Positions 20,021 to 61,100 of a stretch of 64,000 nt of DNA are shown here, one piece after another. Position 1 is the first letter of the stretch. The number at the start of each line of letters is the position of its first letter. The DNA is from Luteolibacter ambystomatis. Its GTDB lineage: Bacteria; Verrucomicrobiota; Verrucomicrobiia; Verrucomicrobiales; Akkermansiaceae. A program made the translations under genes and the position numbers. The stretch lies in contig NZ_CP073100.1 of NCBI RefSeq assembly GCF_018137965.1, forward strand, positions 1,922,001 to 1,986,000, in the 5' to 3' direction. The notes beneath the pieces were generated by a model that was given only the letters and a program-made list of their open reading frames with translations, was not told the origin of the DNA and made no database searches.

Positions 20021-23000
20021 TCAGTTCCGCTGCGCCTTCAGGCGGAAGAAGTACTTCGGCGAGGCCGCCATGGAGTCCGGACAACCGACATCCACACCCA
20101 CCCGTCCGCCCGCAGGCGTGCCGACGGTCAACTTCGATGTCCCGCCAGCCAGCCAGCTCCACGGACCGGTGCCGGACTTCGCCGCCAGCGTCGTCCACGT
20201 GCCCCCGAGCAGGTTGATGCCCTCGACCGTATAGGTCACATCGGACGCGGCTGGATCAGGCATGTCGAGATGGAACAGCGCGGGGGAAACGCCCGGCTTG
20301 AGCTTCGGCATCGGGGTCTTGCCGTCCAGCGGATCGGTGCCCAGCGCATACTCCAGCAGGTTGGAGACGCCGTCATGATCCGGGTCCGCGAGATCACCCG
20401 CCACCGCCGGATCATTGGCGGAAGCTCCGAACTTCGTTTTCTTCCACGCATCCACCGGCAGGTCCGCGATGGTCACAGTGCCGTTCACCGTCGCGCCCAG
20501 CGTGTAGGCCGCGTCCGCGGTGAGCGTCAGCACCGCCGTCTCGTCCCCTTCCGCTACGGCATCCACCGTAGGAGTGATGGTCACATCGGCCGAGGCGCTG
20601 CCCGCGGGAATCGTCACGGTAGAGGCCACGCTGGTGTAGTCGGTGCCATTGGTGGCGGTGCCGGACATCGCCACGTTCACCGTCAGCGCGGCCAGCGTCG
20701 AACCACTGCGCGAGATCGTGAACTTCCCGGCCACCGGACCGGACTCGCTGGCGCTGGGCAGCGGTGTCGTCATGGAAACCACCGGCAGCGGCGAGGTCGC
20801 CGTGACCGTCATGTCATCGAAGGTCTTCACCTCGCCATCGTCGCCGATCAAACGCAGCACATACGTCCCGCCCTGGCTGAAGCTCGCGCTCGTCGCCGGT
20901 GTGGAGGCGTTTCCAAAGGTCACCGTGCCCGGCCCGGAAACCTTCGTCCACGTCGTGGTCAGCGCGCCGGGCGAGACCGGCTTGCCATCGTCGCTCGCCG
21001 TTCCTGCCAGCGTCGCGTTTGCGGGCAGCAGCACCGGCTGATCCACGCCCGCATTCACCGCAGGCCCCACGTTCCCGGAGTAGCCGAACCCGCTCACGTT
21101 GTCGAAGGTCGCCGTGCCGCTGTTCGCGCTGTCCGAGCTCCAGCAAAGCCCCGCCCGCACGTCTCCGGCCATCGTGATCGTGCCGCGGGAGGTCCACGTC
21201 GTGCCGTCATCGGAATGATAGCCGGTGATCGTGGTTCCCACCCGCACCAGACGGCACCATGTCGGCAATCCCATCGCCGCTTCCGTGTACTGGTCGCGGA
21301 CGTTCGCACCGCCCGCCGTGGTACGGGTGATCCAGTAGCCCCATTCGGTCGGAGTCGTATCCATCCCCACGAACGCGCTCACCCCGTTGGCCGCTCCGCC
21401 CGTGCCCAGGCGCACCACCAGACCCGCCCGCTCGGTGGTCGAGTTCGATATATTCGTTCCGCTGGCCACCCGCGTCTTCAGGTCGAAGTCTCCGCTGAAG
21501 GTCGATCCGAGCATGAAGAAACCGTCGGACGTGCCGCCGCTGTCGATGCCCGATGAAGCCCCGCTCAGGCTGTAGCTGGAGCTGCTGATCGTGGTGTAGC
21601 TGCCCGCCCCTCCGCTGCCGTAGGTATATCCCGCGAGAGTCCCGCCCGGGGTCACGCCCACGTTCACCGTCACGTCCGCGGTGGTGGTCACGCCGCCGTC
21701 ATACGCGGACAGGCGCAGCACGTAGGTGCCATTCGCGGAAAACAGCGCCGTCGTGTTCAGCGCGTGCGTGTCGCCGAAGGTCACGGTGCCCGGACCACTC
21801 ACCATGCTCCACGTCGTCACCAGCGCGGAAGGCTGGCCGTCATCCGTGGCGGTGGCTTCCAACAGCAGGCCCACGCCGGTGGGGATGCTGGTGCTGCCCA
21901 CCGTCGGCGAGGTGATCGCCACCACCGGAGTCACATCGTTGTCCGCGATCGTCACCGTGCCGGTGCCAGCACCATTGATGCCGTAGCTCGGGTCCGCCGT
22001 CACCGTGAGGATCACCGTTTCACCGCCGGTCTCCTGGAGGAAGTCATCGATCGGAGTCACCGTGATCGTCGCACTGGTCTGCCCCGCCGGAATCGTCACC
22101 GTGCCGGAAAGCGCCTGGTAGTCCGTGCCGTTCGTGGCCGTGCCGGAAAGCGTGTAGAGCACGTTCAACGCGGCGGCCGTGGAACCACCGCTGCGCGTCA
22201 CCGTGAAGCTGCCGGGATCGAGCCCCACCTCCGCGGCATTCGCATCCGGAGTCGCCAGCGCCACCGTCGTGATCGCCGTGTTCACCGTCACGTCATCGAA
22301 GGTCTTCACCCAGCCGTCGTTGGCCGTGAGACGGAGAACGTAGGTGCCGGACGAGGAGAACGAGGCCGTGGTGGCCGCCGCAGCCGCATTGCCGAAGGTG
22401 GTCGTGCCGGTGCCGGAAATCTGCGACCACTGGAGCACGGGCGCCGCCAGCGGCTGGCCGTCATCGGTCACGCTGCCGGACAGGCTCACGGAAGAAGTGG
22501 CCACCGTCTGATCCACTCCGGCATTCACCAGAGCGCCCTTGTTCACCAGCGGCGCCACCGTGAAGTTGTCGAAGGTCGCCGTGCAGGTGGAGCCGGTGTT
22601 GTTCGCGCACAAGCTCAGGCCCACATAGACATCCGTGCCCATCATGATCGTCGCCGTGGATTGCTGCGTCCACGTCACGCCATCCGCGGAATACGAGCCG
22701 GTCAGCGTGTTGCCCGCACGCGAGATCCGCACCCAGTACGGCGCGGTCGCTCCGGCGGTGTTGCTGTTGTCACTGCCACCGTCGGTGGAGTCGCGCCACT
22801 GCATCGCCGTGCCATTGCCGGGAGTCACGCTCATGAAGGCATGCTTCGATCCCGCCGCCAGCGATTCGCGGATCATCACGCCCGGCTTCGCCCAGGACGA
22901 AGTGTTCGTCACCGAGATCACCCGCGCCGTCACCGTCACATCGCCGTGCGCCCGCTCGAAGGCATAGCGGAACGAATCCGCGTTGTTCCACAGGTCGCCG

Positions 23001-26000
23001 CTGCGGCAGGCCAGCGTGTGTACGCCGGTGCCCTCGTTCAGCGAATAGCTGCCCGCGCTGACGCTGCTACCGATGTCCTTCGCGTAAAGCGTGTCGGTCC
23101 CGCCCACGTTCACGATCTGGTCGGCGGTGGAGGTCTGGTTGCCATCGTAGGCGGAGAAACGCACCACATACGTGCCGTTCGCGGAGAAGGTCGCCGTCGT
23201 GTTCAACGCCGCGGGCGTGCCGAAGGCCACCGTGCCCGGACCGCTCACCTTCGTCCAACTGTAGGTCATCGGCGCGGGCAGGCCGTCATCCGTGGCGGCG
23301 GCTTCCAGCAACAACCCCGCCCCCGCGGGCAACACGATGTTCGGATACAGCGGGCTGGTGATCTGCACATACGGCGCGAAGTCGTCGTCCTCGATGGTGA
23401 TCGAGTCGAAGTACGGCGCTCCTAGTGTGTAGTTTGCATTGGTGGAAAGTGCCACCAGCACGTACTCGTCGCCCTCGCTGGCGCTGTCGTTGATCGGTGT
23501 CAGCGTGATGGTCTTGCTCGCGGAACCCGACGGGATGCTCACCGAAGTGCCGATGGAGGTGTAGTCGCTGCCGCTCGTCGCACTGCCGGAAACCGTGAAG
23601 TTCACCGTCAGCGCGTTCGTCGTCGGCCCGGTGCGGCTCACCGTGAAGGTGCCCGTGGTCGCGCCCGTTTCCGTCGCGATGTTGTCCGTGGCCACGATGC
23701 TCACCACCGGCATGTCATCGTCCGTGATGGTCACGGTGGCGGCGGCGGGCGAACCCACCGTGTAAACCCCGGCGCTCGCGGCCAGCGTCACGATCACCGT
23801 CTCGGAAGTCTCCGCCGTGGCATTGTCCACCGGCGTGATCGTCACCGGCGCGCTGGAGGCACCCGCCGGGATCGTGACCGAGGTGCCGATCGCGGTGTAG
23901 TCCGTGCCGGAGGTCGCCGTGCCGGAAACCGTGAAGTTCACCGTCAACGCGTTCGTCGTCGGCCCGGTGCGACTCACCGTGAAGGTGCCCGTGTCCGTGG
24001 CCGAAGGGCTCTCGGCCGCGGTCGCATCCGTAGCCGTGATCGTCACCACCGGCGTGTCGTCATTGGCGATGGTGTAGGTGTGCGAGACATTCGCGCCCAG
24101 ATCCGCGCCGACCGGATTGGAAAGCCCCACGATGATCGTGCGGTCCGGCTCGATCACCGCGTCATCCACCACCGTCACCGGGATCAGCTTCACCGTCTCG
24201 CCCGCGTTGAAGGTGAGCGTGCCATTCGCCAGCGTGTAATCCGTGCCGGATACCGCCGTGCCGCCGGTCACCGCGTAGTCGACCGTCACCGCCGCAGCCG
24301 GCTTGAAGCTCAGCGCCACCGGCAGGTTCACCGTGGTGTTCGATTCCGGACCGGAGGAAGCGGCCGCCGCAAAGCCGACGGTCGGCTGCGCGGGCGGCAC
24401 ATCGTTGTCCGAGATCGCGAGGATGTGCTGGGTGATCGTGCCGAGGCCGGCCCCGCCCGCATTCACCAGCGAAACCACCACGTTCTCGGTGTTCTCCACG
24501 ATCTGGTCATCGGTGATCTGCACCGGGATGTTCAGCGTGGTCGTGCCCGCCGGGAAGGTCAGCGTGCCCGAGGCCAGCGTGAAGTCCACGCCGCTGCCCT
24601 CGGCATTCGTCACCGAGCCGGCACGCCACTGGAACGCCACACCGTTGCCGGGTGTCAGCGAGCTCATGCCGTGGCGGGCATCGTCGAAGAGACTCTCGCG
24701 GATCATCACCCCGGCCTTCGTCCACGCCACGCCACCGCTGATCGCGGTCACACGCGCGGTCACCGTGCAATCGCCCGTGACCGGCGTGGAAACGAAGTAA
24801 AACGAATCCACGCTGTCGTAGATGTCATTCGTCTGCGACTTGAGCGTGTAGGTGCCGGAGACGTTCGTCCAGCTTCCCGGCTTCGGCGTGTAGCCCACGT
24901 CCGTGCCGGTGAAGGTGCCGCCCGCAGGAGTGACCGTGACGTTGTCGAACGTCGCCGTCGCCTGCGAGGCCGCGCTGTTGTTCGAGCCGAGGCACAGCCC
25001 CACGAAGGCCGTGTTGCCCATGCCGATCGTCTGCGTGGTCCCCTGCTGCGTCCATGTCACGCCATCGGAGGAACGATACGCCGCCAGCGAGTTGCCGGTG
25101 CGCGTCATCCGCACCCAGTACGGCGCGTTCAGGCCGGTGGTGTTGCTGTTGTTCGAGGAGGTCGAACCACTACCCACCACGTAGTTCACCGTCACCGGAT
25201 TCACGGAGGCGGCGGAGAGGCTCACCGGGATATTCACGGTGCCCGCGCCCTCGGCGGTGGTGCTCGCGGCGCTGTTGAAGCCCACCGTCACCGCGGAGGT
25301 GTCGTTGTCCCCCAGATACAGGGTGGCCGGCAGCGGCGAGCGGGAATACGCGCCCGGAGCCAGCGTCAGGATGATCGTTTCCGTCCCCTCCCCAGCCGTG
25401 TCGTTCACGGGCGTCACCGTGATGTCCACGAAGGACTTGCCCGCGGGAATGGTGGCGGTGCCGCTGAGCGCGGTGTAGTCGCTGCCATTGGTGGCCGTGC
25501 CGCTCATCGTGTAGTTCACCACCAGATCGGCCGTGGTGGAACCGGTGCGCAGCAGCGTGAACTTGCTGTTGGTGGCAGGCTCCGCCGGGCTGGTGTTGGA
25601 CGCATCCACGAACACCGTCGGCTGCTCGTCATCGTAGAGCCACATCGTGGCATGATCGCTGGCAGGCCAGGTGACGTAGGACGCGGACGGAGTGATCGTG
25701 AGCGTGACATCCTCCAGGTCCTCCACCGCCACATCGTTGATGGGCGTGACCGTCACATCCACCGTGCGGTTGCCGCTGCCCGCCGGGATCGTCACCGTTC
25801 CGCTGAGCGCGTTGTAGTCGCCGCCCGGCGTGGCGCTGCCGCCGACGGTGTAGTTCACCGTGAACGACGAGGTCACCACTCCACTGACGGCGAACCGGAA
25901 GATGCCCGCCGTGCCGGACTCGCCGAACGAATCCTCCGCCGCGGCCACCGAGACGAACGGCTTGTTCGCCGGGTTGCTCTTGATCGTGAGCGTGCTCGTC

Positions 26001-29000
26001 GAATTACTGCCCAGCTTGTAGTTCGATCCCAGCGAGCCGAGCAGGATCGTCACCGTCTGGTCATCCTCCAGGATGCCATCGTCGATCGGCGCGATCGTCA
26101 CCGCCGCGCTGGTCTGCCCCGCCGGGATCGTCACCGATCCGGGCAGGATCACGTAATCGACTCCCTGCAACGCCGAGCCCGCGAGGCTGTAGTAGAGCGT
26201 GAGATCCTGCGAGGTGTCCCCGGTGCGGGTGACGAGGAAGGTGCCATTGTCCGCCGGGCTCGCGCCCTCCGTGGCGATGGCATCGGACGTCGTGACCGTG
26301 AGGATCTGCAGGTCGTCATCCACGATCGTGGCCGTGGCCGCGTTCAATGGTGAGGCCTCGATGAGGTAGGCGGCATTCGTGGACAGTGTGACCACCACCG
26401 TCTCGTTCGTCTCGGAGGCGCTGTCGTTGATCGATGTCACCGGGATGTCCGCGGAGGATGCTCCGGCAGGAATGGTCACGGAACCGGGCAGCGCGGTGTA
26501 GTCCCCGCCCGCGGTGGCCGTGCCGCCCACGGTGTAGTTCACCGTCAGCGCGGCGGTGGTGGGGCCGTTGCGGCTCACGCGCAGCAGCGCCGGAGTGGCG
26601 GAGTTTTCCACCGTGACCGGCACCGCGGCCACGATGCCCACCTTCACCCCGTTCGTATTGGGATCGTTGTCGATGATCGTCACGGTCGCCTCCTGCGAAC
26701 CACCGATCACATAGGACGAACTCTGCGCCAGCAGCAGCCGCACCGTCTCCGGGCCTTCCGTGCTGGCGTCCGTCTTCGGTGTGACCGTCACGTCCAGCGA
26801 GGCCGCGCCCGCGGGAATGGTCAGCGTGTTCGAGGAGATCGCCGGGGACAGCGTGTAGTCCGTGTTGTTGGTCGCCGTGCCCGCCACGCTTTGCATGGTG
26901 ATCGCCAGCGCGTTGGTCGTCGGACCCGTGCGGGTCAGCGTGAATTTTCCGGTCGATCCGGCCAGATCCTCGGTGCAGGTCGGCACCGTGGCCGTGATCG
27001 TCACCACCGCTCCGGCGGCGGCATCGAAGTTCGCGGTGTCCGTGTTCGGCCCCACTGTGATCGAGGAGCCCTGGCTGCCGGTGAAGCTGTAGCCATCCAG
27101 CCGCGGCGTCACCGAGTAGGTGCCCGCCGCGAGGCCCACCAGCGTGTAATAGCCGTCCGAGTCCGTGACCGTCTCCTTGTTCGTGGTGGAAACCGGGATG
27201 TTCGCCAGCGGCTGGACGCCGTTCGTCACCCGCCCGCCGATGCTGTAGGTGGTGTTCGTGCCGACGTTGACCACGATGCTGCGCACCGCGGTCTTCCCCT
27301 TCATGTCGGACACCGTGCAGGTCACCTGGTACTGGCCCGCGGAGCTGAAGGTGCGGTTGATGGACGCCGCGTTCGGCAGCGCCGTCTTGTCGCCATTACC
27401 ATAAGTCCAGTAGTAGGACAGCGCGTCGCCATCCGGATCGTTCGCCACCGCATTGAAGGTCACCGTCGCGCCCGTGGGCACGTTCGTCGCGGAGGCGTTC
27501 AGCGCGAGCGTGGGCGGCTGGTTCCCGGGGAACTGGCCGAGGTTCACCACCACGTCCACCGTCTTCGGGCTGGTCGCCTTGTTCACCGCCACGGGCGTGA
27601 GGTGGATGCCGGAGGCGGCGTCCGAGAACGTGCGGCCCACGATGATGTTGCCGTCCGCCTTGCCGTTGATCGAGCCCGGCGTGGTGTCGATGAGCTGGTT
27701 GTTGCTGCCGCCGCCGGACGGATACTTCCATTCCAGGCGGATGCCATTGGACTGCCACGGCTGGTTCGCGTCCGCATCGGAAAGCTGGCGCACCTCCGCG
27801 TAGTAGGTGCGCAGCGGGTCCTTCACGATCTTCAGGCCGTAGCTCAGCGCCGGATCGAGGATGTTCGAGTCGTGCGCCGCGATGCGGTAGGTGCCGCTGG
27901 AGGCCACGCTGGTGAGGTTGTCCGCCGTGAACCACTTGATCTGCTCCTTGGAGGCGATGTTGTACTGGCCGGTGGTGATGCTGCCGCCGCCCATGATGTC
28001 GAAGTCATCGCCGTATTCCTGGTTCGAACCGTAGCCGATGCCATTGACGCCGTTGCTGTCCCAGAAGTTCGCGTGCGCCAGGCCGAAGGTGTGGCCCATC
28101 TCGTGCGCCACCACCTCGCGCCAGGTGGAGCTGTAGATCCACACGCTGTTTCCGCCCACCGTGCCCCAGCCGCCCGCGCCGCGGGACACGCCGTAGGCGT
28201 AGGATTGCAGCACCACGATGCAGTCGTAGTTCGCCGGATCAAAGCCAGCCGCCTTCGCCGCCGCGCGCGCGTCCGTGTGGGTCAGGCCGAGGCAGTCGAT
28301 GTTGCCGCCGTTGTCCGCATCGTTCGCCTGATACCACTTGCCATTGTGCGGCATCATCAGGCAGGGCGTGACCGTGGTGGCGATGGTGAGCTTTCCGAAG
28401 GACGACTTGTTGTAGTAGTCGGCGATGTCCTTCATCGTGTTGTAGGCGTTCGCCTCCGTGGTCGGCGCCACGTTCTCGTCCGGGAAGGTCACCGGGATGT
28501 AGAGCACCTTCATCACGCCGAGCGCCTTCGTGGAAACGTAGGGCAGCGGCCCGTTGAAGCCCACTCCGCCGCCACCCGCGCCCTCACCGGCCACCAGCTG
28601 GTTTTCGAAGACCGTGGTGTGGCTGCCATTGCACAGGTAGAACACCTGGCCCTGCGCCTCCACCACCGGCTCGTCCGCCTTCACCGCCGCAGCGGCCTGC
28701 TCCGGCGGCAGCGCCGTGGAGTTTCCGGAAACCGGGCAGATCTCCACCTTTGGCAGCGCCGGGTCCGGGCGCTCGCCCACCTCCAGCGGCCGCACCGGGC
28801 GGGGATCGAGCGCGAGCTGCGCCATGCCGCCCTTCGGCCGGACCGCCACGCCGTTCACCGAGCGGTTCGCCTTGTAATCCATCAGATACTGCTCACGCCC
28901 GGACGTGTAAGCCTGGTAGGTCACGCCATCGTTCAGCTCCAGATAATGCACCGCGGCCACCGGCACACTGCCCGGCAGCGTGGTATTCGCATACGTCCGC

Positions 29001-29425
29001 AGCGCCCCCACGCCGCGCACGCGCTCCTCCAGATGAGCCGTCACCTTCGCAGGCAGATCCTGCCGCACCACCATCGGCACCGCCTCCGCCAGCGCGCGCG
29101 CCGGATCGGTCTTGATGAGCTTCAGGAATTCCGGGCGGCGCGCCTTCGCCAGCGCCACACCCTCGTCCGCCGCCGCCTTCCGCTCCTCCGCGGATGCCGC
29201 CATGTAGCCGCGCGACCAGTCCTTGAAGGCCTCCAGCTTCCCGAAGTCCACCGGACCGCCCTCCACCGGACGCGGCTCCTTCGCCACCTCCGCGCGGGCC
29301 GCCGCCTCATGGCGGAGCGCTCCACCGGGACGGAACGGGCTGGATGATTTCTGGTAAATGTAGGTGCCGAGCGCGAACGCGCCACAAGCGGCCAATGCTG
29401 CAACAAGCCGGGAACGACGGGACAT
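20021..29425 (-). CDS. Giant secreted metalloprotease with Calx-beta, PKD-like and lectin-like modules (3134 aa)
   Basis: The start MSRRSRLVAALAACGAFALG (29425) gives a clean signal peptide; 29455 is possible. An N-terminal domain of about 500 residues carries a zinc site HEMGHTFGLAH (about 28075-28107) and a Met-turn DIMGGG, as in M6-like metallopeptidases. Next come a PKD domain (PDGDALSYYWTYGNGD) and a carboxypeptidase-regulatory-like domain (DSDGYYTLVGLAAGTY). By eye I count about 11 Calx-beta domains, each with an NGTDYT-x-x-x-GTVTIPAG core and most ending DND or DDD. Four further PKD-like domains and three DUF1349/laminin-G-like modules follow. The C-terminus holds DPDHDGVSNLLEYALGTDPL, shared with the two GDSL hydrolases in this window. 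It is probably a cell-surface or secreted adhesive protease needing Ca2+. No transport genes are adjacent. Confidence 0.9.
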   Translation of the reverse strand: MSRRSRLVAALAACGAFALGTYIYQKSSSPFRPGGALRHEAAARAEVAKEPRPVEGGPVDFGKLEAFKDWSRGYMAASAEERKAAADEGVALAKARRPEFLKLIKTDPARALAEAVPMVVRQDLPAKVTAHLEERVRGVGALRTYANTTLPGSVPVAAVHYLELNDGVTYQAYTSGREQYLMDYKANRSVNGVAVRPKGGMAQLALDPRPVRPLEVGERPDPALPKVEICPVSGNSTALPPEQAAAAVKADEPVVEAQGQVFYLCNGSHTTVFENQLVAGEGAGGGGVGFNGPLPYVSTKALGVMKVLYIPVTFPDENVAPTTEANAYNTMKDIADYYNKSSFGKLTIATTVTPCLMMPHNGKWYQANDADNGGNIDCLGLTHTDARAAAKAAGFDPANYDCIVVLQSYAYGVSRGAGGWGTVGGNSVWIYSSTWREVVAHEMGHTFGLAHANFWDSNGVNGIGYGSNQEYGDDFDIMGGGSITTGQYNIASKEQIKWFTADNLTSVASSGTYRIAAHDSNILDPALSYGLKIVKDPLRTYYAEVRQLSDADANQPWQSNGIRLEWKYPSGGGSNNQLIDTTPGSINGKADGNIIVGRTFSDAASGIHLTPVAVNKATSPKTVDVVVNLGQFPGNQPPTLALNASATNVPTGATVTFNAVANDPDGDALSYYWTYGNGDKTALPNAASINRTFSSAGQYQVTCTVSDMKGKTAVRSIVVNVGTNTTYSIGGRVTNGVQPLANIPVSTTNKETVTDSDGYYTLVGLAAGTYSVTPRLDGYSFTGSQGSSITVGPNTDTANFDAAAGAVVTITATVPTCTEDLAGSTGKFTLTRTGPTTNALAITMQSVAGTATNNTDYTLSPAISSNTLTIPAGAASLDVTVTPKTDASTEGPETVRLLLAQSSSYVIGGSQEATVTIIDNDPNTNGVKVGIVAAVPVTVENSATPALLRVSRNGPTTAALTVNYTVGGTATAGGDYTALPGSVTIPAGASSADIPVTSINDSASETNETVVVTLSTNAAYLIEASPLNAATATIVDDDLQILTVTTSDAIATEGASPADNGTFLVTRTGDTSQDLTLYYSLAGSALQGVDYVILPGSVTIPAGQTSAAVTIAPIDDGILEDDQTVTILLGSLGSNYKLGSNSTSTLTIKSNPANKPFVSVAAAEDSFGESGTAGIFRFAVSGVVTSSFTVNYTVGGSATPGGDYNALSGTVTIPAGSGNRTVDVTVTPINDVAVEDLEDVTLTITPSASYVTWPASDHATMWLYDDEQPTVFVDASNTSPAEPATNSKFTLLRTGSTTADLVVNYTMSGTATNGSDYTALSGTATIPAGKSFVDITVTPVNDTAGEGTETIILTLAPGAYSRSPLPATLYLGDNDTSAVTVGFNSAASTTAEGAGTVNIPVSLSAASVNPVTVNYVVGSGSTSSNNSNTTGLNAPYWVRMTRTGNSLAAYRSSDGVTWTQQGTTQTIGMGNTAFVGLCLGSNNSAASQATATFDNVTVTPAGGTFTGTDVGYTPKPGSWTNVSGTYTLKSQTNDIYDSVDSFYFVSTPVTGDCTVTARVTAISGGVAWTKAGVMIRESLFDDARHGMSSLTPGNGVAFQWRAGSVTNAEGSGVDFTLASGTLTFPAGTTTLNIPVQITDDQIVENTENVVVSLVNAGGAGLGTITQHILAISDNDVPPAQPTVGFAAAASSGPESNTTVNLPVALSFKPAAAVTVDYAVTGGTAVSGTDYTLANGTLTFNAGETVKLIPVTVVDDAVIEPDRTIIVGLSNPVGADLGANVSHTYTIANDDTPVVTITATDATAAESPSATDTGTFTVSRTGPTTNALTVNFTVSGTATSGTDYTAIGTSVTIPAGASSAPVTITPVDNATAETSETVIVTLAASAGVYTVGSPAAATVTITDDDMPVVSIVATDNIATETGATTGTFTVSRTGPTTNALTVNFTVSGSATSGSDYTSIGTSVSIPSGSASKTITLTPINDSASEGDEYVLVALSTNANYTLGAPYFDSITIEDDDFAPYVQITSPLYPNIVLPAGAGLLLEAAATDDGLPAPMTYSWTKVSGPGTVAFGTPAALNTTATFSANGTYVVRFSAYDGNQTSTADQIVNVGGTDTLYAKDIGSSVSAGSYSLNEGTGVHTLACRSGDLWNNADSFRYAFERAHGDVTVTARVISVTNTSSWAKPGVMIRESLAAGSKHAFMSVTPGNGTAMQWRDSTDGGSDNSNTAGATAPYWVRISRAGNTLTGSYSADGVTWTQQSTATIMMGTDVYVGLSLCANNTGSTCTATFDNFTVAPLVNKGALVNAGVDQTVATSSVSLSGSVTDDGQPLAAPVLQWSQISGTGTTTFGNAAAAATTASFSSSGTYVLRLTANDGWVKTFDDVTVNTAITTVALATPDANAAEVGLDPGSFTVTRSGGSTAAALNVLYTLSGTATNGTDYQALSGTVTIPAGQTSATITVTPIDDFLQETGGETVILTVTADPSYGINGAGTGTVTIADNDVTPVVAITSPTVGSTSIPTGVGLLLEATATDDGQPSALVTTWSMVSGPGTVTFGDTHALNTTALFSANGTYVLRLSAYDGGVTTTADVTVNVGVTPGGTLAGYTYGSGGAGSYTTISSSSYSLSGASSGIDSGGTSDGFFMLGSTFSGDFDLKTRVASGTNISNSTTERAGLVVRLGTGGAANGVSAFVGMDTTPTEWGYWITRTTAGGANVRDQYTEAAMGLPTWCRLVRVGTTITGYHSDDGTTWTSRGTITMAGDVRAGLCWSSDSANSGTATFDNVSGFGYSGNVGPAVNAGVDQPVLLPANATLAGTASDDGKPVSPGALTTTWTKVSGPGTVTFGNASTPATSASFSQGGTYVLRLIGDDGEVKTFDDMTVTATSPLPVVSMTTPLPSASESGPVAGKFTISRSGSTLAALTVNVAMSGTATNGTDYTSVASTVTIPAGSASADVTITPTVDAVAEGDETAVLTLTADAAYTLGATVNGTVTIADLPVDAWKKTKFGASANDPAVAGDLADPDHDGVSNLLEYALGTDPLDGKTPMPKLKPGVSPALFHLDMPDPAASDVTYTVEGINLLGGTWTTLAAKSGTGPWSWLAGGTSKLTVGTPAGGRVGVDVGCPDSMAASPKYFFRLKAQRN

Positions 29426-29666
29426 GGGTTTTTTGGGATGCCTGAAGAGATGCAAAGAACGGGAACAACAAAGTCACATGGCCGGAAATGAGACCATCGC
29501 GTCGCGAAGACGGCCTTCCGGCGTGAAGAGCCCTGTCGGCTCGAAACGGGAATCGGACAAAAATGCGGATCAGGGACGGATGCCTGGGTGCCGGAAAAAG
29601 CGCCGGATGCCTCCGGCGGAAGTTTTGGGTTTTCTGGGTTTCTGATGCGAACGAATGAACGATCCG

Positions 29667-50325: not shown

Positions 50326-53300
50326 ATGAAGCCTTCGTCACGCAACCCGCTCTTCCCTGGATCGGTGCCGCTCAGCCTGGTGCTCGCGGCCTCGGCGGCC
50401 TCCGCCCAGGTGGTCCAGATCGTGCCGCTCCAGCCAGCCGCGCAGGCCCAGCCCGCCCAACCGGTGAACCCGCAGCAGCCCGCGCAACCCGCCGGAGAAG
50501 CCGCCGCCGGACCGGCCAAGGAGGGCGAGAAAAAGGAAGCCGATCCCACCAAGGAGTTGGCCAAGGAGCTCAAGTCGATGCGGTTCGACCGCTCCGGTGA
50601 GGCGCTGCTGGCCGCCACCAAGTCCCAGAAGAAGGACACGCCGCCGACTCCCGCCGAAACCTTCGGCATGGCGGTGATGTTCGGCGATTGGACGGAGGTC
50701 GGCAAGACGCTGGCCACACTGCCACCGCAGGATGCATCCGCCATCTATGGGAAGCTGTTGGATTCGCTTGGCGATCAATCGATCTCCGTAGGCGCGGTGC
50801 TGAAGACACCGGAAAATTCATCGGATGAGGACGAGGACCCGCGCGAGCGCATGCAGCGCCAGATGAAGGAGCGGGAGGAACTGAAGAAGAAGCCCGCGCC
50901 GATCCTCAGCGAAGACTTCTACGCGATCGTCAACGCCAACCCCGCCGATCTCAAGGAGGAGAACATCCCGGCACTCACCAAGCTGGTGAAGACCGCGCTT
51001 GGCGAAGGCGGACGTGCCACGCTCGTCACCCGCATGGAAAAGGGCTGGAAAGGTCTCGGCGGCACCACGTCGGAAGGCAGGAAGCTGGCCACGCGCCTGC
51101 TTTCCTCGCTCGGCTGGATCCGCGATGCCGGACCATTCCTGCCACTGAAGAAGGAGGATTGGGACGACGCGGAAACCTCCCAGCTCATTTTCGCGATGGA
51201 GTACTTCACCCGCACCGGCGTGGAGGAAAAGGACGAGCGCCAGCTCCAGCAGGCCGCGGATCTCGCCGCGCGCGTGATGAAAACCGCACGCTTCGGCAAC
51301 TACACCCGGCCGCAGTTCCGCCCCGCCATGGAGCGGCTGGTGCAACTGCTGCCCGCACTCGATCCCGCCCAGGCGCAGAAGCTCATCCGCGAGCAACTCT
51401 TCAACCAGACCGCCACGCTTTCCGAACTCATCGGCATCATCGGCGAGCTCGGGCAGAACGCCTCCAAAGGCACCGACGTGCAGGCCCGTGCCTCCAGCCT
51501 CGGCACCCAGCACCTCATCCTCGAAGCCCTCGCGGGCAAGGAAGGCGCGTTGCCCTCGAACACCGCCGTGCTGGTGATGAACTGGCTCAATGAGGCCGAG
51601 GCCTGCTACCGCGCCGGTGGCGTGGTCACCACGGAAATGTCCCAGGCGGAGCGCATGATGCTGCGTCGCTACGGCTACGGCAACAATCAGGAGAAAGCCC
51701 CCACCCTCTCCACCGAGCAGGTCCTTTCGACCGCACCGCCCAAGGCGTTGATCGCACGGCTCAATCCCGGTCTCGCCCAGCGCGTGGAACTCACGTTGGT
51801 GAAGGTGGGCGTCCTCCTGCCGGACGAGGCGGACCTCTCGCTGCTGAAGGACTATGTGAAAAAGTATCCGGGCCTCGAGCGCGAAGTCTGCCAGGACGTG
51901 CTGGCCGGATGGGTCTCCAAGCGCACGAAGCCCGCGGAAAGCGAGCAGGTGAAACAGATGCGCGCCTACGGCTACTACATCCCGCCGCAGATGCAGCAGC
52001 AGGGTTCCGGCATCCCGCTCACCCGCCTGCGCCAGAACCAGAACATCCAGCACTTCAAGGCGCTGCTCGGCGACCTGCGCTCGATCTCGCCGGAACCGCT
52101 CGATCCGAAGCTCATCGTGCAGGCCTTCATGACGCTGCACAGCGGTGCGGAGGTCTATCGCATGGAAGACATCGAGGCGATCTTCGGCCCGCCTGAAAAG
52201 ATGGTGCAGAAGGAACTGCTCGACCTGCTCGGCGGCATGCGCGGCCGTCTCAACCAGGAATGGCGTGATCCGAAGACGCAGCAGCAGGCCGGCACCAACC
52301 GCACCGAGCAGGAAGCGAAGGACGAGGTTTCCCGCGGCTACCGCACCGCCCTCGAACTCGCGAAGCGCGGCATCCGCCCGGAGAGCGAGGATTGGTCCGC
52401 CTTCATCACCCGCGGCCAGTTGTTCTACGATGCCTCGCAGTATGAACTCCAGCGTCAGGTGAAGCTCACCGACTATGTGAACCTGCGCGACGAATCCTTC
52501 GCCAGCTTCCGCAAGGCCACCGAGCTCTATGCAGCGAAGATCCCCACCCTGCCCAGCGGCCAATGGACCATCGAGCCCTATCAGGCATGGTTCTTCGTGA
52601 TGCTCGGCGCGAGCGATCTCGCCCAGCTCACCACCAATACCGCACGGGTCGATCCGGGCCTCAAGTCCATCGGCGATGCCATGCGCGCTCTGCCGGGCGA
52701 TGCCGGTCCGCGTCACCTGGAGATCTTCGCCAAGATGCTCGGGGAGGTCTTCCCGCGCGTCCCCGCGAACATGCGCCAGCTCTTCCTCGGCTCCGGATTG
52801 GGCATCGTGGGCGCGGACAATCCCGCCGCTTCCGCCGCCACCAAGTCGCTCGACTACTACAAGGAACTGCTCGATGAAATCCAGCTCCGCATCAAGGTGG
52901 ACGGCCCGAGCCGCGTCGGCCACGGCCAGCCCTTCGGCGCCGTCGTCTCGCTGGAGACCACACGCCAGCTCCTGCGCGAAAGCGGTGGATTCAGCAAGTA
53001 TCTCCAGAACCAGTCCGACCAGCAGCGCTCGATGTTCGGCGGTGGTGAGGAAGGCGGATCGAAGAACCTGCGCGACGACTTCACCAAGAACATCCACGCC
53101 GCGCTGGACGAGACCTTCGAGGTGGTGTCCATCACCTTCCACGATGCCGCGGTGAAGACCATCGACCTGCCGCGCGAGGGCTGGGTGGAAACGCCGCTCG
53201 CCTACATGGTGCTGCGTTCGAAGACCGCCGCCGTGGATCGCATCCCATCGGTGCAGCTTGATGTGGATTTCGTCGATCAGCCCGGCCAGGTCGTGCTGCC

Positions 53301-54096
53301 GGTGATGTCCCAGGTCGAGCCGATCGATTCACACGATGCCGATGTGGAGAACCGCCCGTGCGGCGACCTCGCGCTCTCGCTCACCATGGACGAACGCGAA
53401 TGGAAGGACGGCAAGGTCGTGGTGGAAATCCAGGCTCGCGGCCAGGGAGTGATCCCGGATCTCGACAAGCTCTTCGACACCAGACGCGAGGGTTTCGATC
53501 TGGAGAGTGTCGATGGCAAGCTGTCCGTTTCCCAGTTCGTGAGCGATGGCAAGAAGCGTCTGCCACAGGCCGACCGCAACTGGCAGCTCACCTACCGCCG
53601 CAAGGCGGACCTGAAGGGTGACGTGACCTTCCCCTTCCCCGCGCTCAAGTCCGGCGTCAAACCGGCGTCCATCGACTACAAGCACTACCAGGATGCCGAC
53701 CTCGTCGAGATCGATGCCGCCAAGGCCACTGCGGGCGTGAAGCTCGCCGGACGGACCGGAAGCTGGCTCGGCACCTCCGTCATCGTGGTGCTGCTCGTAG
53801 CCGCCATCGCTGCATTGATCGCCTTCTTGAAAAAGAGAAAGCGCCAGACGGCGGAAGTGGCGAAGGAACTCTCCGCTCCCTCCAATCCCACGCCGTTCTC
53901 CACCGTCGCCTTCCTGCGCCGCATCGGCCTGACCCATGGCGATACCATGTCGGACGGCGAGAAGGTCGCCCTGTGCGAGCAGATCGCCGAGATCGAGTCC
54001 CGCTACTTCAGCGCCAAGGAGACATCGGCTGGCGATCTCTCCCCCGTCATCAGCAAGTGGCTGGAAGTCGCGCGGCGCTCCTCGGGCGTTGCCTGA
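50326..54096 (+). CDS. Large membrane-anchored protein at the end of the Bat-like operon (1256 aa)
   Basis: The protein has a signal peptide (residues 1-27), a Gln/Pro/Ala-rich linker, and a long helical region. Near the C-terminus comes a beta-rich part with FVDQPGQVVLPVMSQVEPID, then a membrane helix at about 1146-1165 (WLGTSVIVVLLVAAIAALIAFL) and a cytoplasmic tail of about 90 residues. It lies 33 bp after the TPR gene and is probably the last gene of the operon. It is not similar to any Bat protein I know. It could be the envelope target or scaffold on which the MoxR-VWA machine acts; this is inference. Confidence 0.8.
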   Translation: MKPSSRNPLFPGSVPLSLVLAASAASAQVVQIVPLQPAAQAQPAQPVNPQQPAQPAGEAAAGPAKEGEKKEADPTKELAKELKSMRFDRSGEALLAATKSQKKDTPPTPAETFGMAVMFGDWTEVGKTLATLPPQDASAIYGKLLDSLGDQSISVGAVLKTPENSSDEDEDPRERMQRQMKEREELKKKPAPILSEDFYAIVNANPADLKEENIPALTKLVKTALGEGGRATLVTRMEKGWKGLGGTTSEGRKLATRLLSSLGWIRDAGPFLPLKKEDWDDAETSQLIFAMEYFTRTGVEEKDERQLQQAADLAARVMKTARFGNYTRPQFRPAMERLVQLLPALDPAQAQKLIREQLFNQTATLSELIGIIGELGQNASKGTDVQARASSLGTQHLILEALAGKEGALPSNTAVLVMNWLNEAEACYRAGGVVTTEMSQAERMMLRRYGYGNNQEKAPTLSTEQVLSTAPPKALIARLNPGLAQRVELTLVKVGVLLPDEADLSLLKDYVKKYPGLEREVCQDVLAGWVSKRTKPAESEQVKQMRAYGYYIPPQMQQQGSGIPLTRLRQNQNIQHFKALLGDLRSISPEPLDPKLIVQAFMTLHSGAEVYRMEDIEAIFGPPEKMVQKELLDLLGGMRGRLNQEWRDPKTQQQAGTNRTEQEAKDEVSRGYRTALELAKRGIRPESEDWSAFITRGQLFYDASQYELQRQVKLTDYVNLRDESFASFRKATELYAAKIPTLPSGQWTIEPYQAWFFVMLGASDLAQLTTNTARVDPGLKSIGDAMRALPGDAGPRHLEIFAKMLGEVFPRVPANMRQLFLGSGLGIVGADNPAASAATKSLDYYKELLDEIQLRIKVDGPSRVGHGQPFGAVVSLETTRQLLRESGGFSKYLQNQSDQQRSMFGGGEEGGSKNLRDDFTKNIHAALDETFEVVSITFHDAAVKTIDLPREGWVETPLAYMVLRSKTAAVDRIPSVQLDVDFVDQPGQVVLPVMSQVEPIDSHDADVENRPCGDLALSLTMDEREWKDGKVVVEIQARGQGVIPDLDKLFDTRREGFDLESVDGKLSVSQFVSDGKKRLPQADRNWQLTYRRKADLKGDVTFPFPALKSGVKPASIDYKHYQDADLVEIDAAKATAGVKLAGRTGSWLGTSVIVVLLVAAIAALIAFLKKRKRQTAEVAKELSAPSNPTPFSTVAFLRRIGLTHGDTMSDGEKVALCEQIAEIESRYFSAKETSAGDLSPVISKWLEVARRSSGVA

Positions 54097-55154: not shown

Positions 55155-58100
55155 TCATGCAATTGGGCGTGATCCGGGTTGCGCCAAGTGATACCAATCA
55201 AATTCGTCCATATCCCAACACCCTCTATCCTTCATTCTAGCCTTAAGATTTTTGAGTTCATTCCTTAGCGCCTCTGCATGTGCATCATGTTTTTTGGGAT
55301 TCTTACTCCATGGCACGTCATCGCATCCTTCTTTTATATAATCCATCCTCACCTTCCTCTCGTTGATAAGACCTTTTGATTTTTGGTACATATCCTCGCA
55401 AGTATTTTCCCCAGTAGGCCGCTTATCCTGGATATTCTTATACTTATCATGCAACCTGCAGCAATCATTCACTTTTTGCCGCCTATCTTGCTTTTCGTTA
55501 ACTCCATTAGGCTCTTGAGTCCAGCGATCCACCATATCCCAATCTATATGATCATGATCCTCGTCTGGTTCAGGTTGTGGAGAAGTAGGATTGGGATAAG
55601 GAGCCCACCTTGAAGACGGTTCTGTTATAGTTCCAGGAGGAAGAGGATCCAAAGGCATATAGCGAGGTGAGACAACTTCTGGCACCTGAACCACCGTCCG
55701 CGGGAACGTATAGGTAAGCGTTTCTGGAGTCACAACCGGAGTCGGTCGGAAATAAAAAACAAGTCCAGATAGACCGAATTGATCTATAGAGTTCACAGGA
55801 TTATTTCCAAGCATGCAATACATGTTTGATCCAGCAGCTTCCCCAAGAATATCACGCGAGCACCATCTCCCTAAACCGGTGTGATAAAAACGAAATCCAT
55901 AATTATACAACCCTGTCTCCAGATCCTTAAATTCCGCGTGGAACAAAAACGTCCATTCATAACTACTTTCATCTTTTTGCTCGAATGACGCGCTCAGGAT
56001 TTGTTCTGCCCCAAACGCATCATAATCATAGCGTTCAATGACAGAACCTGATCGATCAATCAAAGCCACTGGATCAAAATAGTCTTTCAACGGAAATACC
56101 AATTCATCGGACTCCACCCCTTCTGTCGATCTTACTCGTCGGATCAAATCCCAACGGTCGAAGGGATTCCATCCGTACTGCCGATCAACAATTGTGGGCG
56201 TCTCGGCGAGACGCTCTTCTATCACCCGCCACTGATTGTCGTATATGAAAATTTTTCCTATTCCGTCTACGACAGATTTCACGCGACGATTTCTTGAGTC
56301 ATAACTATAAACAGCCAAAACAGAACCCTCATCGTCTTTAACTCGAACTAGACGGTTCCACGCATCCCAAACGAGTTCATATCCCATAGTCGGATTTTTC
56401 GGCGTGGGGATAGAGATCATGTTTCCAGCCAAATCGTAAGCCGGTTGGATGACACCAGATGGGCCATCCAAACTGACGATTTGGTTAGATTGGTTGTTCA
56501 CTCGACTCTGAGAAAAGGAAGGCTCTTGTTTATAGGTGGAATTCCAATTTGCGGATTCATCAAAGACAAATATCTCTTGCTGAGAACGAGGCATATCTAT
56601 TGTATTCTCAATACCAGTGTAATATGGGCCGAATGATGGTATCAGATTACCACGATCGTGACGCCTCACTTGCTGAAGATCGTCGTACCAATAATAGCTA
56701 TCCTGTGTATTAACGGACATCGCGTGTGCCTTCTCGTCACGCCTCCATTCTATTCCACCGACTCTGTTTCGCCCATAACGGGAATGCACCTGTTTGCCAT
56801 CGGCGTTTTCCCATATAATTTCCACTCTGCGACCAAAACGATCAAGGCCGGTATATTTATCTCCAGCGTCCCCAGTCGCCCCATTTTTCATTGTCCATTT
56901 TGCGATTGGGATAGCAGGTAATCCATCCGAGAATATTTCCTCATCCACTAATGTAGCCACCCCCAAATATGTAGTTCTAAAATAGGACAGAGGAAACTCA
57001 TAATTAATTTGATCAGGTCGGCTCAAGGCGTCCGCTTTGACCGACCCATATTGAATAGCCACACCCTTAGAAGAAACGATACTGGATTTCGTCATTCGAA
57101 GTGTATTTGAACTGCCGTCTTCATATTCGTAGGACACCTCTACCGAAGGGAGTTCTGAGGAACCGTTGGGTTTCTGAGTTTCCGCTTTAAGTTGATTAAA
57201 GAAATTATAATCATAAATAACTTGATTAATACTACTCGTCCCATCCACGCTGAAACTAGTTTGAGACTCAACAAATCCGGAGTCACTATAAACTGTTGTA
57301 ACCCGACCTATTGTGGCATCAATTCCTTGACCGAACTCTTCTACTTGATCGACCAGTAGGCGGCCTAATTTATCAAGGCTATAGGCATGAATGGTGCCAT
57401 TAGGATCGGATACCCTCACAGTTTGAAGTTGACGGTTGTATAGACTGGTAACTCTATCGGAAGCTCCTGTACTGTTGGGATAAATCTTCTGGAAGACCAA
57501 GCGGTTGCTATTGATCGAGGACCCCTGAGCAATACTCACCCCGCGCACCCATTCTGTGATCTGTAGACCAGTGTCCGGGTTCTCGCACTTGAGTTTGGTC
57601 AGCCAACCGTCATCCGTATATTCATAGTGGGTAGCACGAAACCCAAAGGAAGCATCATTTTCTACAGTGGTAATCAGACGGCCAGCGTCGTCGTAAACAC
57701 GCGAGTTACTGATGCCAGCAGCATTGGTCAGGACCGTTGTATTGCCAGCGGCATCATACAAGGTCGAAGTCACTAAGACAGTGTCCGAACGCAGCGGCGT
57801 GGTCTGGCTGCGACTCCACGAGCCTCCCCCATTGGTACCGTAGTCGGAGGTTGCCATTAAGTGTCCGACAGCATCTGCATAGGAAGCAATATAGCTTACT
57901 CGAGCCTTTGGCGAAATTGAAGAATCCCCTAACTCACCAGTATCTACATCTGGAGTATCATCGAATCGCTGGCGGTGAATCTCACTAAGAAGGTTGCTTG
58001 CCTCGTCATAGTTCATCTCCTTTTGGTCCATCACAACTGCATGAACAATCGATGATGGATCGACTAATGGGTTGTCGCCTGTTGATGGCCAAGCCCGGAA

Positions 58101-61100
58101 TATTTTCTCAATACGTCCTACGCTATCGTATCTCCTGACGATAAAGAGCTTACTCCCGGAGGGAGCACTGCGCGCTAGCCGACCTGAGGCGTCATAATAG
58201 AATTGCGAGATCTGCGGGTTGCTCCAGTCTCCATTGTTCTGATAGACGCGTGTTCTGAAAGGGTTTTCAAGCGCATCATAATCTGTATCCGTGCGTGCAA
58301 TGACGTTGCTGGGAGAAGTGGTGTCGCTTTTGAACGTCTGTTGGGAAGTCAATAGATCTCGGTTGTCGTATGTGTAGCCGTTAATGAATGCGAACGGACT
58401 CTCGTCGAGATGACGGGCCGATGTTTCCAAGCGGTTGCGGAAATCGTAGGTGTTCGTCGTCACCCGGTCGTTCGCGGTGTTCGTGTCCACCGGCGCGGTG
58501 ACCTGGGTCACGTTGCCGTTGGCATCGAACTCGCGCACCGTCGTCACACTCAGGCCCGCCACCGTGCCGAGTTCCTCCTGCACCGGCCAGCCCATCGCGT
58601 TGAATGTCGTCTGGTCGATCGTCGCCCCGGCACACATCGTCCAATTCTGGCGGCCCACGCTGTCATACGCCAACAGCTTGCGACCGTAGTTCTCCGACTG
58701 ATGGCCGTAGCCGCCGAGCGGGATGTTGAAGTAGGTCCATTGCTCCTTATACTCAGACGCGCGGTCGCTGAGGCCGACGGTCCAGCGGGTCCACGTTTCC
58801 TGGCCGAAGACGGTGTCCGGCGCGGGGATGCCCTCGCCGTCATAGACCGCCTGGATCAGCGACGACTGGCGCCAACCGGCGTAGGCCGCCATGTCCGCGG
58901 GCGGCGGCAGGTTCGGACGGTTGATGCTCACCGGGCCGACGATCTGGTCGACCGCCGGGCCGACGGTGGTGCGGTAGCCATTGAAGGTCCACGTGCCCTC
59001 GATGTCGTCCTGGAAATAGGTCCAGCGGCAGGTGCGCAGCGCGGTGGGCGTACCGGCGAGATCGACCTCATGTTCCGGTCCCAGAGTCAGAATGGTGCGG
59101 CCGCGGCGGTCCAGTTCGTAGTCGGTGACCAGATTCAACCCCGTGGGGTCCTGCGTCATCTTCGTCATGCCGCCGGTGGCCGCATCGTATTCGTAGGTGG
59201 TCGCCACGCCGAGTTGGTCCACGATCTTGATCAAGGCACCGAGGGTATCGAAGTGCGACTCGGTCTGGTAGGACGCGCCGGTGCCGTTTTCACTCGTCGG
59301 GACCACCGGCAGATGGGTGGTCTTTTTCGAAATCTGGTTGGTGCCGCTGTGGTAGTCGTAGGAGTAGGTCGTGACGACCTCCTGCGTACCGGCATCATCC
59401 CGGTAGGTGGTGCGCTTGTTGACCACGTAGATCGTGCCGTTGGCCGTTTCCGGGCACGCCTGGTATTCCAGCTTCTCCTGCGGAATCAGGGTTCCGGAGG
59501 TGCCATTCTGGATCTTCGTATTCTGCAGATAGCCCGCGGCCGTATAGTCGTAGACAGTGATTTTCCCCACCGTGGCCGAGAGGTTCACCAAGGTCGGGGT
59601 GCCTTCATCAATGCCTTCGATCGCGGAGCCGGACGCCGACAGCAGGATGCGGCCGCTGCCTTCCTCGAACTGCTGGCACAGCGGATACCACGTCTGGTCA
59701 CCATCCTGGACCATCTTGAGCATCAGCTGGCCGCTGCGGTTGTAGTAGCAGCTCATCACCGAGCCGTCCGCGCGCACCACCTCCGTGCAGGAGGCCCAGC
59801 CGGTGAACGCCGAAGCGGGCGGCACCGGGTTGGTACGATAGCTGAAGGTCTGCTGATACCGCCGCCCGCTGGTGTAGAACAGCGTCACCCGGTTGTTCGC
59901 ATCGTACTCCGCGAACTCCGAAGCGGCGTATTCGTTGAGCTGGCTCTCCGTGGCCTCCTCCGGATCGATGCCGTTGTTCATCATCTGGCGGTGGATCTGC
60001 GGCGGGATCACATGCCGCATCCGGTTGCTGCCGGGATGATAGCTGTAGAAAGTGGTCGAGATCGGGGCATCACCCCAGTCCGCCGGTTCTCCCGCGGGGG
60101 CGCGGTTTTCCCACAGCTTGACAGTCGTCAGGTTGCCATCGGTGTAGCCGTAGGTGGTCTTGAGCACCGGATCATCGTCCACCTCGTACTTGAGCTCCGA
60201 AGTCATGCCCGCGGTGTTCGTCTCATAGCGGTAGCGGTTCGATCCGCCACCCAGGCTGGGGATGTTGATGTCCTTGAGGCGGTCGCCGTCGAAGGTGAAG
60301 TTGGCGGCGACGTTGCCCGCGCCGACCATGGTCTTGAGCTTGCCGTTGATGTCGAAGGTGAACTTCTTGCCCGTGCCCTGCAGCATCGTGTAGATGCCGC
60401 CGCCGCCGACCTCGCTCTTGAACGAGAACTGGTCCTTGACGAAGTAGAGCGTGTTGAAGGTGGTGGTGCCGCCCGGAGGCGGAGGAGGAGTGCCCGGAGG
60501 CAGGCCGCAGACGGCGCGGTCCTGCTGGGGTTTGCACACGATCGGGCCGCTCGCCGGGCCGCTGCTGTTGGTGCCGGAGAGGCCGGCGCAGCCGCAGGCG
60601 ATCCACTTCTGGCCGTGGTCCGCGCCATTGCTGCCGGGGCCGCCGGAACGGCTGCTGTAGGAAAGGCCGGTATCGATCACCACGTCGCCCTTGCCGCCGC
60701 CGCGGGGGGCGGGTGGATCGCCCTTGGGACGGTTGCCGCCCGCGCCGGGATCGCCCTGGGGTCGGCGGCTGTTCGGCCCCGGATCGCCCTTCGGCAGGCT
60801 GGAGGGATTGGCTCCGCCGGAGCGGTTGCCGCCATAGGCCGGCATCCCGGCGACCTGCGCATTGGCCGAACCGTCGGACAGGGAGACCGAGCCGCCGCCG
60901 GCGTCACCCGATTCCGCGTTTTCCGAAAGACCACCCTCGCAGGAATCCTCACACGAGCCGGAGGGACACGACGGCGAAGGCGGCAGGCTGGAGGTGAACT
61001 CCGAGGAGGACGAATCACCGGACGAACCACTGTCGGAGGACGACGAGCTGCTCTCCGAAGGGCCCGAACCGGAGGAGGAATCCGATGAGGAGGAACCACT

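Follow-up and report, generated by a model that had tools for sequence, protein, structure and literature searches.

The window analyzed here is a stretch of 64,000 nucleotides from Luteolibacter ambystomatis (contig NZ_CP073100.1, positions 1,922,001 to 1,986,000), and all coordinates below refer to it. On its minus strand, an open reading frame (ORF) at 20021-29455 encodes a protein of 3144 aa, composed of an HExxH metalloprotease-type region, a PKD domain, 11 Calx-beta domains (one of them split), and three lectin-like modules, each built from a first half (A) and a second half (B). Our own hidden Markov models (HMMs) gave the domain order as five Calx-beta, Calx-beta N-half-B-A-Calx-beta C-half, three Calx-beta, A-B, Calx-beta, A-B, and Calx-beta. 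Within the sixth Calx-beta domain, a lectin-like module of the concanavalin A (ConA)-type jelly-roll class has very probably been inserted into a loop in circularly permuted order. Pfam matches on the protein comprise Calx-beta (11 stretches), PKD, a weak reprolysin-like protease region, and DUF1349; NCBIfam adds an M6-type protease match below the cut-off. The protease region (27536-28558; aa ~300-640) carries the motif HEMGH and accounts for both the weak M12B reprolysin-like match and the sub-cut-off M6-like one. The whole is probably a giant protease/adhesin-like protein, secreted or exposed at the surface.

Within the insert, the B half comes first (24932-25171; aa 1429-1508) and the A half second (24623-24901; aa 1519-1611), with a linker between the two profile matches (24902-24931; aa 1509-1518) that joins the original C and N termini. 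The first-pass annotation had proposed this reversal from short motifs, by comparison with a canonical A-B copy in the same gene (22550-23095; aa 2121-2302) whose motifs run from DSFRYAF (22958-22978) to FDNFTV (22556-22573). All of the motifs lie in the one minus-strand ORF, and in the insert NSNTTG (25133-25150), YWVRMTRTG (25094-25120), and FDNVTV (24932-24949) precede DSFYFVS (24788-24808), GVMIRES (24692-24712), and GNGVAFQWR (24623-24649). Clean profiles of A, B, and the full-length module were built from 104 normal domains of Calx-beta-free proteins, with the window gene excluded. With the half profiles, aa 1444-1508 matched B (80.8 bits, E = 2.9e-27) and aa 1519-1611 matched A (88.5 bits, E = 1e-29), scores well outside what chance would give, so the proposed order stands; the canonical copy scored 97.8 bits for A and 87.9 bits for B. 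Earlier half profiles, which had been seeded on the window's canonical copy and iterated with the insert included, returned flattering E values and the identical order and boundaries.

When compared with the full-length clean profile in its native order, the insert matched as two pieces, profile positions 98-172 first (82.7 bits) and positions 1-95 second (93.8 bits). Stepwise rotation of the insert produced a single peak of 178.2 bits near the B|A boundary, where one full-length domain was matched over positions 1-172. The inserts of L042, L043, and L044 gave the same outcome, and the canonical copy scored best unrotated (204.0 bits). An earlier run with 116 domains had yielded pieces of 96.2 and 85.0 bits and 182.1 bits upon rotation; its set had included six domains drawn from the window gene (L009), from contig-cut nested genes (L045 and L073), or from L034, and the rerun without these agrees. 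As expected of a natural permutation, homologues occur in both orders and both halves are complete. The ratio of nonsynonymous to synonymous substitution rates (dN/dS) relative to the orthologue in G050, a single-contig sister genome of the same genus, is 0.27 for B and 0.26 for A (whole protein, 0.21), and both halves are under purifying selection. Profile searches break such modules into two weaker pieces, so similar cases may go unnoticed.

The insert interrupts the sixth Calx-beta domain in a loop flanked by the V-x-Y strand and the G-x-D-[YFW] motif. The N-half of this domain (25172-25294; aa 1388-1428) matches HMM positions 2-50 of 94, with the fold match running across the insert, and the C-half (24404-24601; aa 1619-1684) matches positions 38-92 of 94 (E = 9e-18). 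An exit linker (24602-24622; aa 1612-1618) leads back into the host domain, which resumes with GSGVDFTLASGTLTF at 24554-24598. As the first-pass annotation had held, the host is a Calx-beta loop: the rejoined halves score 58.8 bits against PF03160 (cut-off, 27), compared with 46.4 bits with the insert left in, when the best stretch is the C-half. Within the window protein, the copy closest to the rejoined domain is the uninterrupted seventh Calx-beta (24104-24385; 48% identity, 85.9 bits). The sixth Calx-beta is likewise uninterrupted in three paralogues from the same genome (L179, L180, and L182), in one from G050 (L184), and in a homologue from another family (L186), all of which carry at least seven Calx-beta domains after the protease region. 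Among the seven of L179, the sixth is the closest to the rejoined window domain (67.0 bits; next, 53.1 bits). Two further proteins (L181 and L185) gave no Calx-beta matches and are uninformative on this point. The paralogues thus show the empty site, and the arrangement is a domain insertion.

A Calx-beta domain nearer the protease region is also split in 11 orthologues (L047, L050, L051, L053, L055, L056, L058, L061, L062, L064, and L069), by ~254-278 residues. Where the start of the protein is complete, this domain is the fourth. The intervening sequence, at roughly the loop position of the lectin insert, repeats W-x-x-G-x-x-G-type motifs and may represent a beta-propeller; in Pfam, the L050 piece gave a weak DUF6242 match only.

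An AlphaFold model of the window segment, based on 32 aligned sequences, reached a mean predicted local distance difference test (pLDDT) score of 86.8 and a predicted template modeling (pTM) score of 0.74. pLDDT fell below 50 at model residues 230-235 (aa 1617-1622), around the exit linker. In the model the Calx-beta halves rejoin, and solved Calx-beta structures align across the insert, with CBD1 of NCX1 (3gin_B) covering model residues 1 to 299 (Z 15.9, root mean square deviation [rmsd] 1.7, 108 aligned). On the lectin side, the highest score went to a glucanase in circularly permuted form (1ajo_A; Z 11.6, rmsd 3.2, 163 aligned, model residues 46 to 227), and the predicted structure is thus consistent with a ConA-like lectin/glucanase fold over most of the inserted domain. 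ConA-type lectins follow (Z ~8, model residues 44 to 205), and Foldseek also places them among its best fold matches. A and B are predicted to form a single jelly-roll in which an A|B hairpin has been opened and its two strands provide the new ends. If so, the insert would leave and re-enter the Calx-beta hairpin at one place.

The same permutation was found in G050, in an orthologue of identical domain order (78% identity), and in other families and orders. Across 386 genomes of the order, 122 matched the profile at 1e-20, many through ordinary tandem arrays alone, and 50 rows from 44 genomes were taken as covering the insert. These rows were compared with the 52 best matches to an orthologue query spanning most of the protease region. 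Among the top 47 protease matches, which include the window itself, 45 have the insert no more than 6 kb away; for each of the remaining two, the contig breaks off and the insert turns up at the margin of a different contig from that genome. The insert is present in one and absent from four of the next five matches. In the reverse comparison, 46 of the 50 insert rows lie within 6 kb of one of the 52 protease rows. Among 384 genomes of the class, nine carry the insert at 1e-60, including members of two further families (f45, doubled form; f17, single form). Named records contributed 31 loci with both Calx-beta flanks (27 double and 4 single), under titles that include Prosthecobacter, Brevifollis, Chthoniobacter, and Opitutus. 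The arrangement is therefore shared by several families and spans at least three named groups of Verrucomicrobiota, and would appear to be old. Two paralogous nested-insert genes stand ~14 kb apart on one contig in each of two genomes (G112:C78 and G210:C163).

Such modules are plentiful in the window's own genome, a single contig of 5.32 Mb, in which we counted 36 lectin-like module matches, the window's included. The B-A order itself is common there because several proteins end in tandem A-B-A-B. What is distinctive about the insert is that B-A occurs without outer partners and within a Calx-beta domain. Giant proteins of the genome (e.g., L002, L003, L004, L179, L180, and L182) carry a tandem A-B-A-B pair near the stop codon, as if it were a common C-terminal module. 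These genome-wide arrays lay beyond the view of the first-pass annotation, as did the third, diverged A-B copy of the host protein (21086-21634; aa 2608-2790). That copy shares 35% identity with its G050 counterpart at a dN/dS of 0.86, compared with 79% identity for the whole protein, and the comparison suggests that the module has been replaced there.

We propose that the insert derives from a tandem A-B-A-B array. Cuts at equivalent A|B loops would have released a segment (B1...A2 or B1-A2-B2-A3) that then entered the Calx-beta loop, either as an excised circle or in linear form. Folding would be expected only of pieces that keep the phase, as any piece with both ends in A|B loops would. A different route, to which we give somewhat less than an even chance, is duplication and partial loss within the Calx-beta loop, whereby an A-B-A-B insert shed its outer halves. 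Permutation by duplication is a textbook route, as presented in the available part of one article (PMC3320104), and tandem arrays are common here. However, among the architectures recovered, none has an insert in a split Calx-beta that begins with A or ends with B, a weak objection given that the searches targeted B-A beside Calx-beta.

The insert exists in two forms. One B-A unit is present in the window, G050, G309, G386, G149, G185, and the Opitutus-type records; Verrucomicrobiaceae- and Chthoniobacteraceae-titled records with both flanks contain B-A-B-A. Of 52 distinct relatives, 41 are double and 11 single (the single label of L045, at a contig end, is doubtful), and a quick tree of Calx-beta domains 7-9 implies three changes between the states, giving no direction. 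We modeled the doubled segment of Brevifollis gellanilyticus from 27 aligned sequences (pLDDT 89.6, pTM 0.78). Of the 42 lectin/glucanase rows among the matches listed, 41 begin at residues 44-47, just ahead of B1, and reach residue 394 or beyond. Ends fall at 394-396 in 28 of the 42 and at 417 for 1ajo_A, which are the single-form ends plus ~190 residues. This offset, derived by hand from the HMM domain boundaries, is what would be expected if the permuted fold were made of B1 and A3, with A2-B2 standing between them as a domain of its own. The evidence is indirect, since the structure tool reports the first and last aligned residues and not which halves lie between. The model therefore suggests that, in the doubled form, an intact A2-B2 lectin is nested in a permuted B1+A3 lectin.

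Alternatively, B1 could pair with A2 and B2 with A3, giving two permuted lectins in a row, which we consider the less likely pairing. A contiguous B-A unit would fit the Foldseek alignment to 1ajo, which spans 212 columns, and one listed row (1mvq) covers model residues 55 to 238. Covariation matching is also unsteady: a mean-field analysis trained on 130 pairs from ORFs without a nested insert and 67 pairs from ORFs with one matched the controls in 30 of 31 cases for one split and in 48-53 of 84 for the other, and contig-cut pieces of nested genes in the "without" set flatter the control of that set. Depending on the training set, 26-27, 16-20, or (both sets) 22-24 of 43 doubles favored nesting, an overall range of 16-27 of 43. 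Against two lectins in a row stand the 41 of 42 listed rows that run from residues 44-47 to at least 394; the ends at 394-396 (28 rows) and at 417 (1ajo_A) match the shifted single-form ends. A disulfide argument for half pairing was dropped, since the Cys found in all 27 A2 rows lacks a consistent partner. In trees of the halves, B1, B2, and A3 each make up one side of a branch (support 75/80, 88/95, and 89/97, respectively), and the window halves are closest to their G050 counterparts; with few columns, these trees do not place the origin.

In another genome of the window's genus (G069; 410 contigs), the gene L175 (G069:C107:16500-21000, minus strand) contains B-A-B-A with no outer partners recognized, in a host without other Pfam matches. 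Judged from its domain matches, L175 is a possible second, unrelated host of a permuted insert. A search for this host in 99 relatives, a list that did not include G069, found none and is uninformative. An opened A|B hairpin would offer adjacent ends that fit any hairpin loop, and permutation may be favored for that reason; the candidate second host hints in the same direction. We regard as evenly balanced the full proposal that most carriers have a three-level nest (Calx-beta > B1+A3 > A2-B2), that the landing-site loop was used repeatedly, and that hairpin ends favor permutation.

Returning to the single form, B-A is the exact middle of an ordinary A-B-A-B tandem, and the insert could be a slice of such an array whose halves do not fold together, either as remnants or as partners of other copies or chains through domain swapping. 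We judge this improbable: profile scans detected no unpaired A or B half in the rest of the protein, both halves are complete and under purifying selection, and the predicted model aligns with a complete permuted jelly-roll across B plus A. An assembly or binning artefact masking a normally ordered segment, which the first-pass annotation had kept as a lesser alternative and which a repetitive gene in a genome with many related modules might invite, has next to no probability, because the window's genome is a single contig and the same junctions recur, at 32-78% identity, in single-contig G050, the named strain record of Brevifollis gellanilyticus NBRC 108608, ~30 loci of metagenome-assembled genomes, and other separately assembled genomes.

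Some results weigh against a permuted lectin-like insertion of simple history. By the structure tool's own note, the ConA-type Z of ~8 is at the edge of significance, and those matches end at residue 205. The DUF1349 name used by the first-pass annotation holds only as a distant resemblance. Against PF07081 (cut-off, 32.4), the canonical copy scores 43.9 bits; the permuted segment reaches 27.4 bits in native order, over the B half only, and 29.7 bits after rotation, continuous over profile positions 37-178 and still below the cut-off. The lectin-like module is thus a distant DUF1349 relative, and the insert no formal Pfam member on sequence criteria. A PF07081 search of 387 genomes of the phylum at E ≤ 1e-10 matched nine genomes, the window's own not among them; because the modules are too distant for this cut, the result is not taken as absence. 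With respect to history, within the window's genus only G050, among the genomes listed, matches across both Calx-beta flanks. The tree of Calx-beta domains 7-9 places the window and G050 with G309, G386, and four Opitutus-type records (support, 98), and not with the other families of its order. This patchy distribution and grouping make transfer between lineages or widespread loss likely, and we make no claim of simple vertical descent; the insert may have spread by descent with losses or by transfer. Taking profile rotation, the predicted structure, conservation, and the empty site in paralogues together, circular permutation combined with domain insertion, the principal claim of the first-pass annotation, is well supported.

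Anchored at both ends, such an insert would project as a side-branch binding domain from the Calx-beta stalk of a protein that is secreted or displayed at the surface, and adhesion is its likely, putative role. The window contains further very large ORFs, at 55155-61226 (minus strand; 2023 aa) and 50326-54096 (plus strand; 1256 aa).

No account of the arrangement surfaced in the openly licensed literature searched, most of it covered as listings, and parts of it have counterparts. ConA is a free-standing lectin whose order other Diocleae lectins share, and these lectins resemble the insert in having the jelly-roll fold in permuted order with respect to favin or peanut lectin. The glucanase CPA16M-127 (1ajo), the best lectin-side structural match, is permuted as well; we take it to be a laboratory-made, free-standing enzyme, its entry title saying just "circularly permuted." The HABAS domains inserted in RNA polymerase have a different fold and sit in subunits far larger than themselves, whereas here a Calx-beta domain of ~95 residues carries ~190 or ~375 residues.

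According to the available part of one article, the permutation of ConA is post-translational, through cleavage and ligation (PMC3320104); that of the insert is genetic. The nearest precedent is swaposin, the plant-specific insert of plant aspartic proteases, which the same partial source describes as a saposin domain in circularly permuted order with a link to the tandem prosaposin array (PMC3320104). Like the window insert, it is a permuted module with its halves swapped, tied to a tandem array and lying inside another kind of protein. Unlike it, swaposin is a four-helix fold of plants, and the available text speaks of neither a doubled nor a further nested form (PMC3320104). In the accessible portions of two articles, inserted domains are stated to be permuted in some cases for RNA polymerase (PMC13114784; PMC11515920), and its HABAS permuted insertional domains share with the insert the status of a permuted inserted domain (PMC13114784). 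For the host, Calx-beta repeats occur in large Ca2+-dependent surface proteins such as BapP, for which the portion of the source at hand does not mention a domain inserted in a Calx-beta loop (PMC12153261). New here are the bacterial combination of Calx-beta and lectin, a probable further level of nesting, an insert larger than its host, and a clean comparative series in which insertion, permutation, and a probable donor type (the tandem arrays) can be traced in one gene family. Because the same protein or genome, or near relatives, supply empty sites, normal copies, and both the single and the doubled state, the debated routes to permutation become testable by phylogeny. Finally, at ~2-4 times the size of its host, the insert is a counter-case to the rule, reported in the available part of one of these sources, that inserts are smaller than the domains that receive them (PMC13114784).
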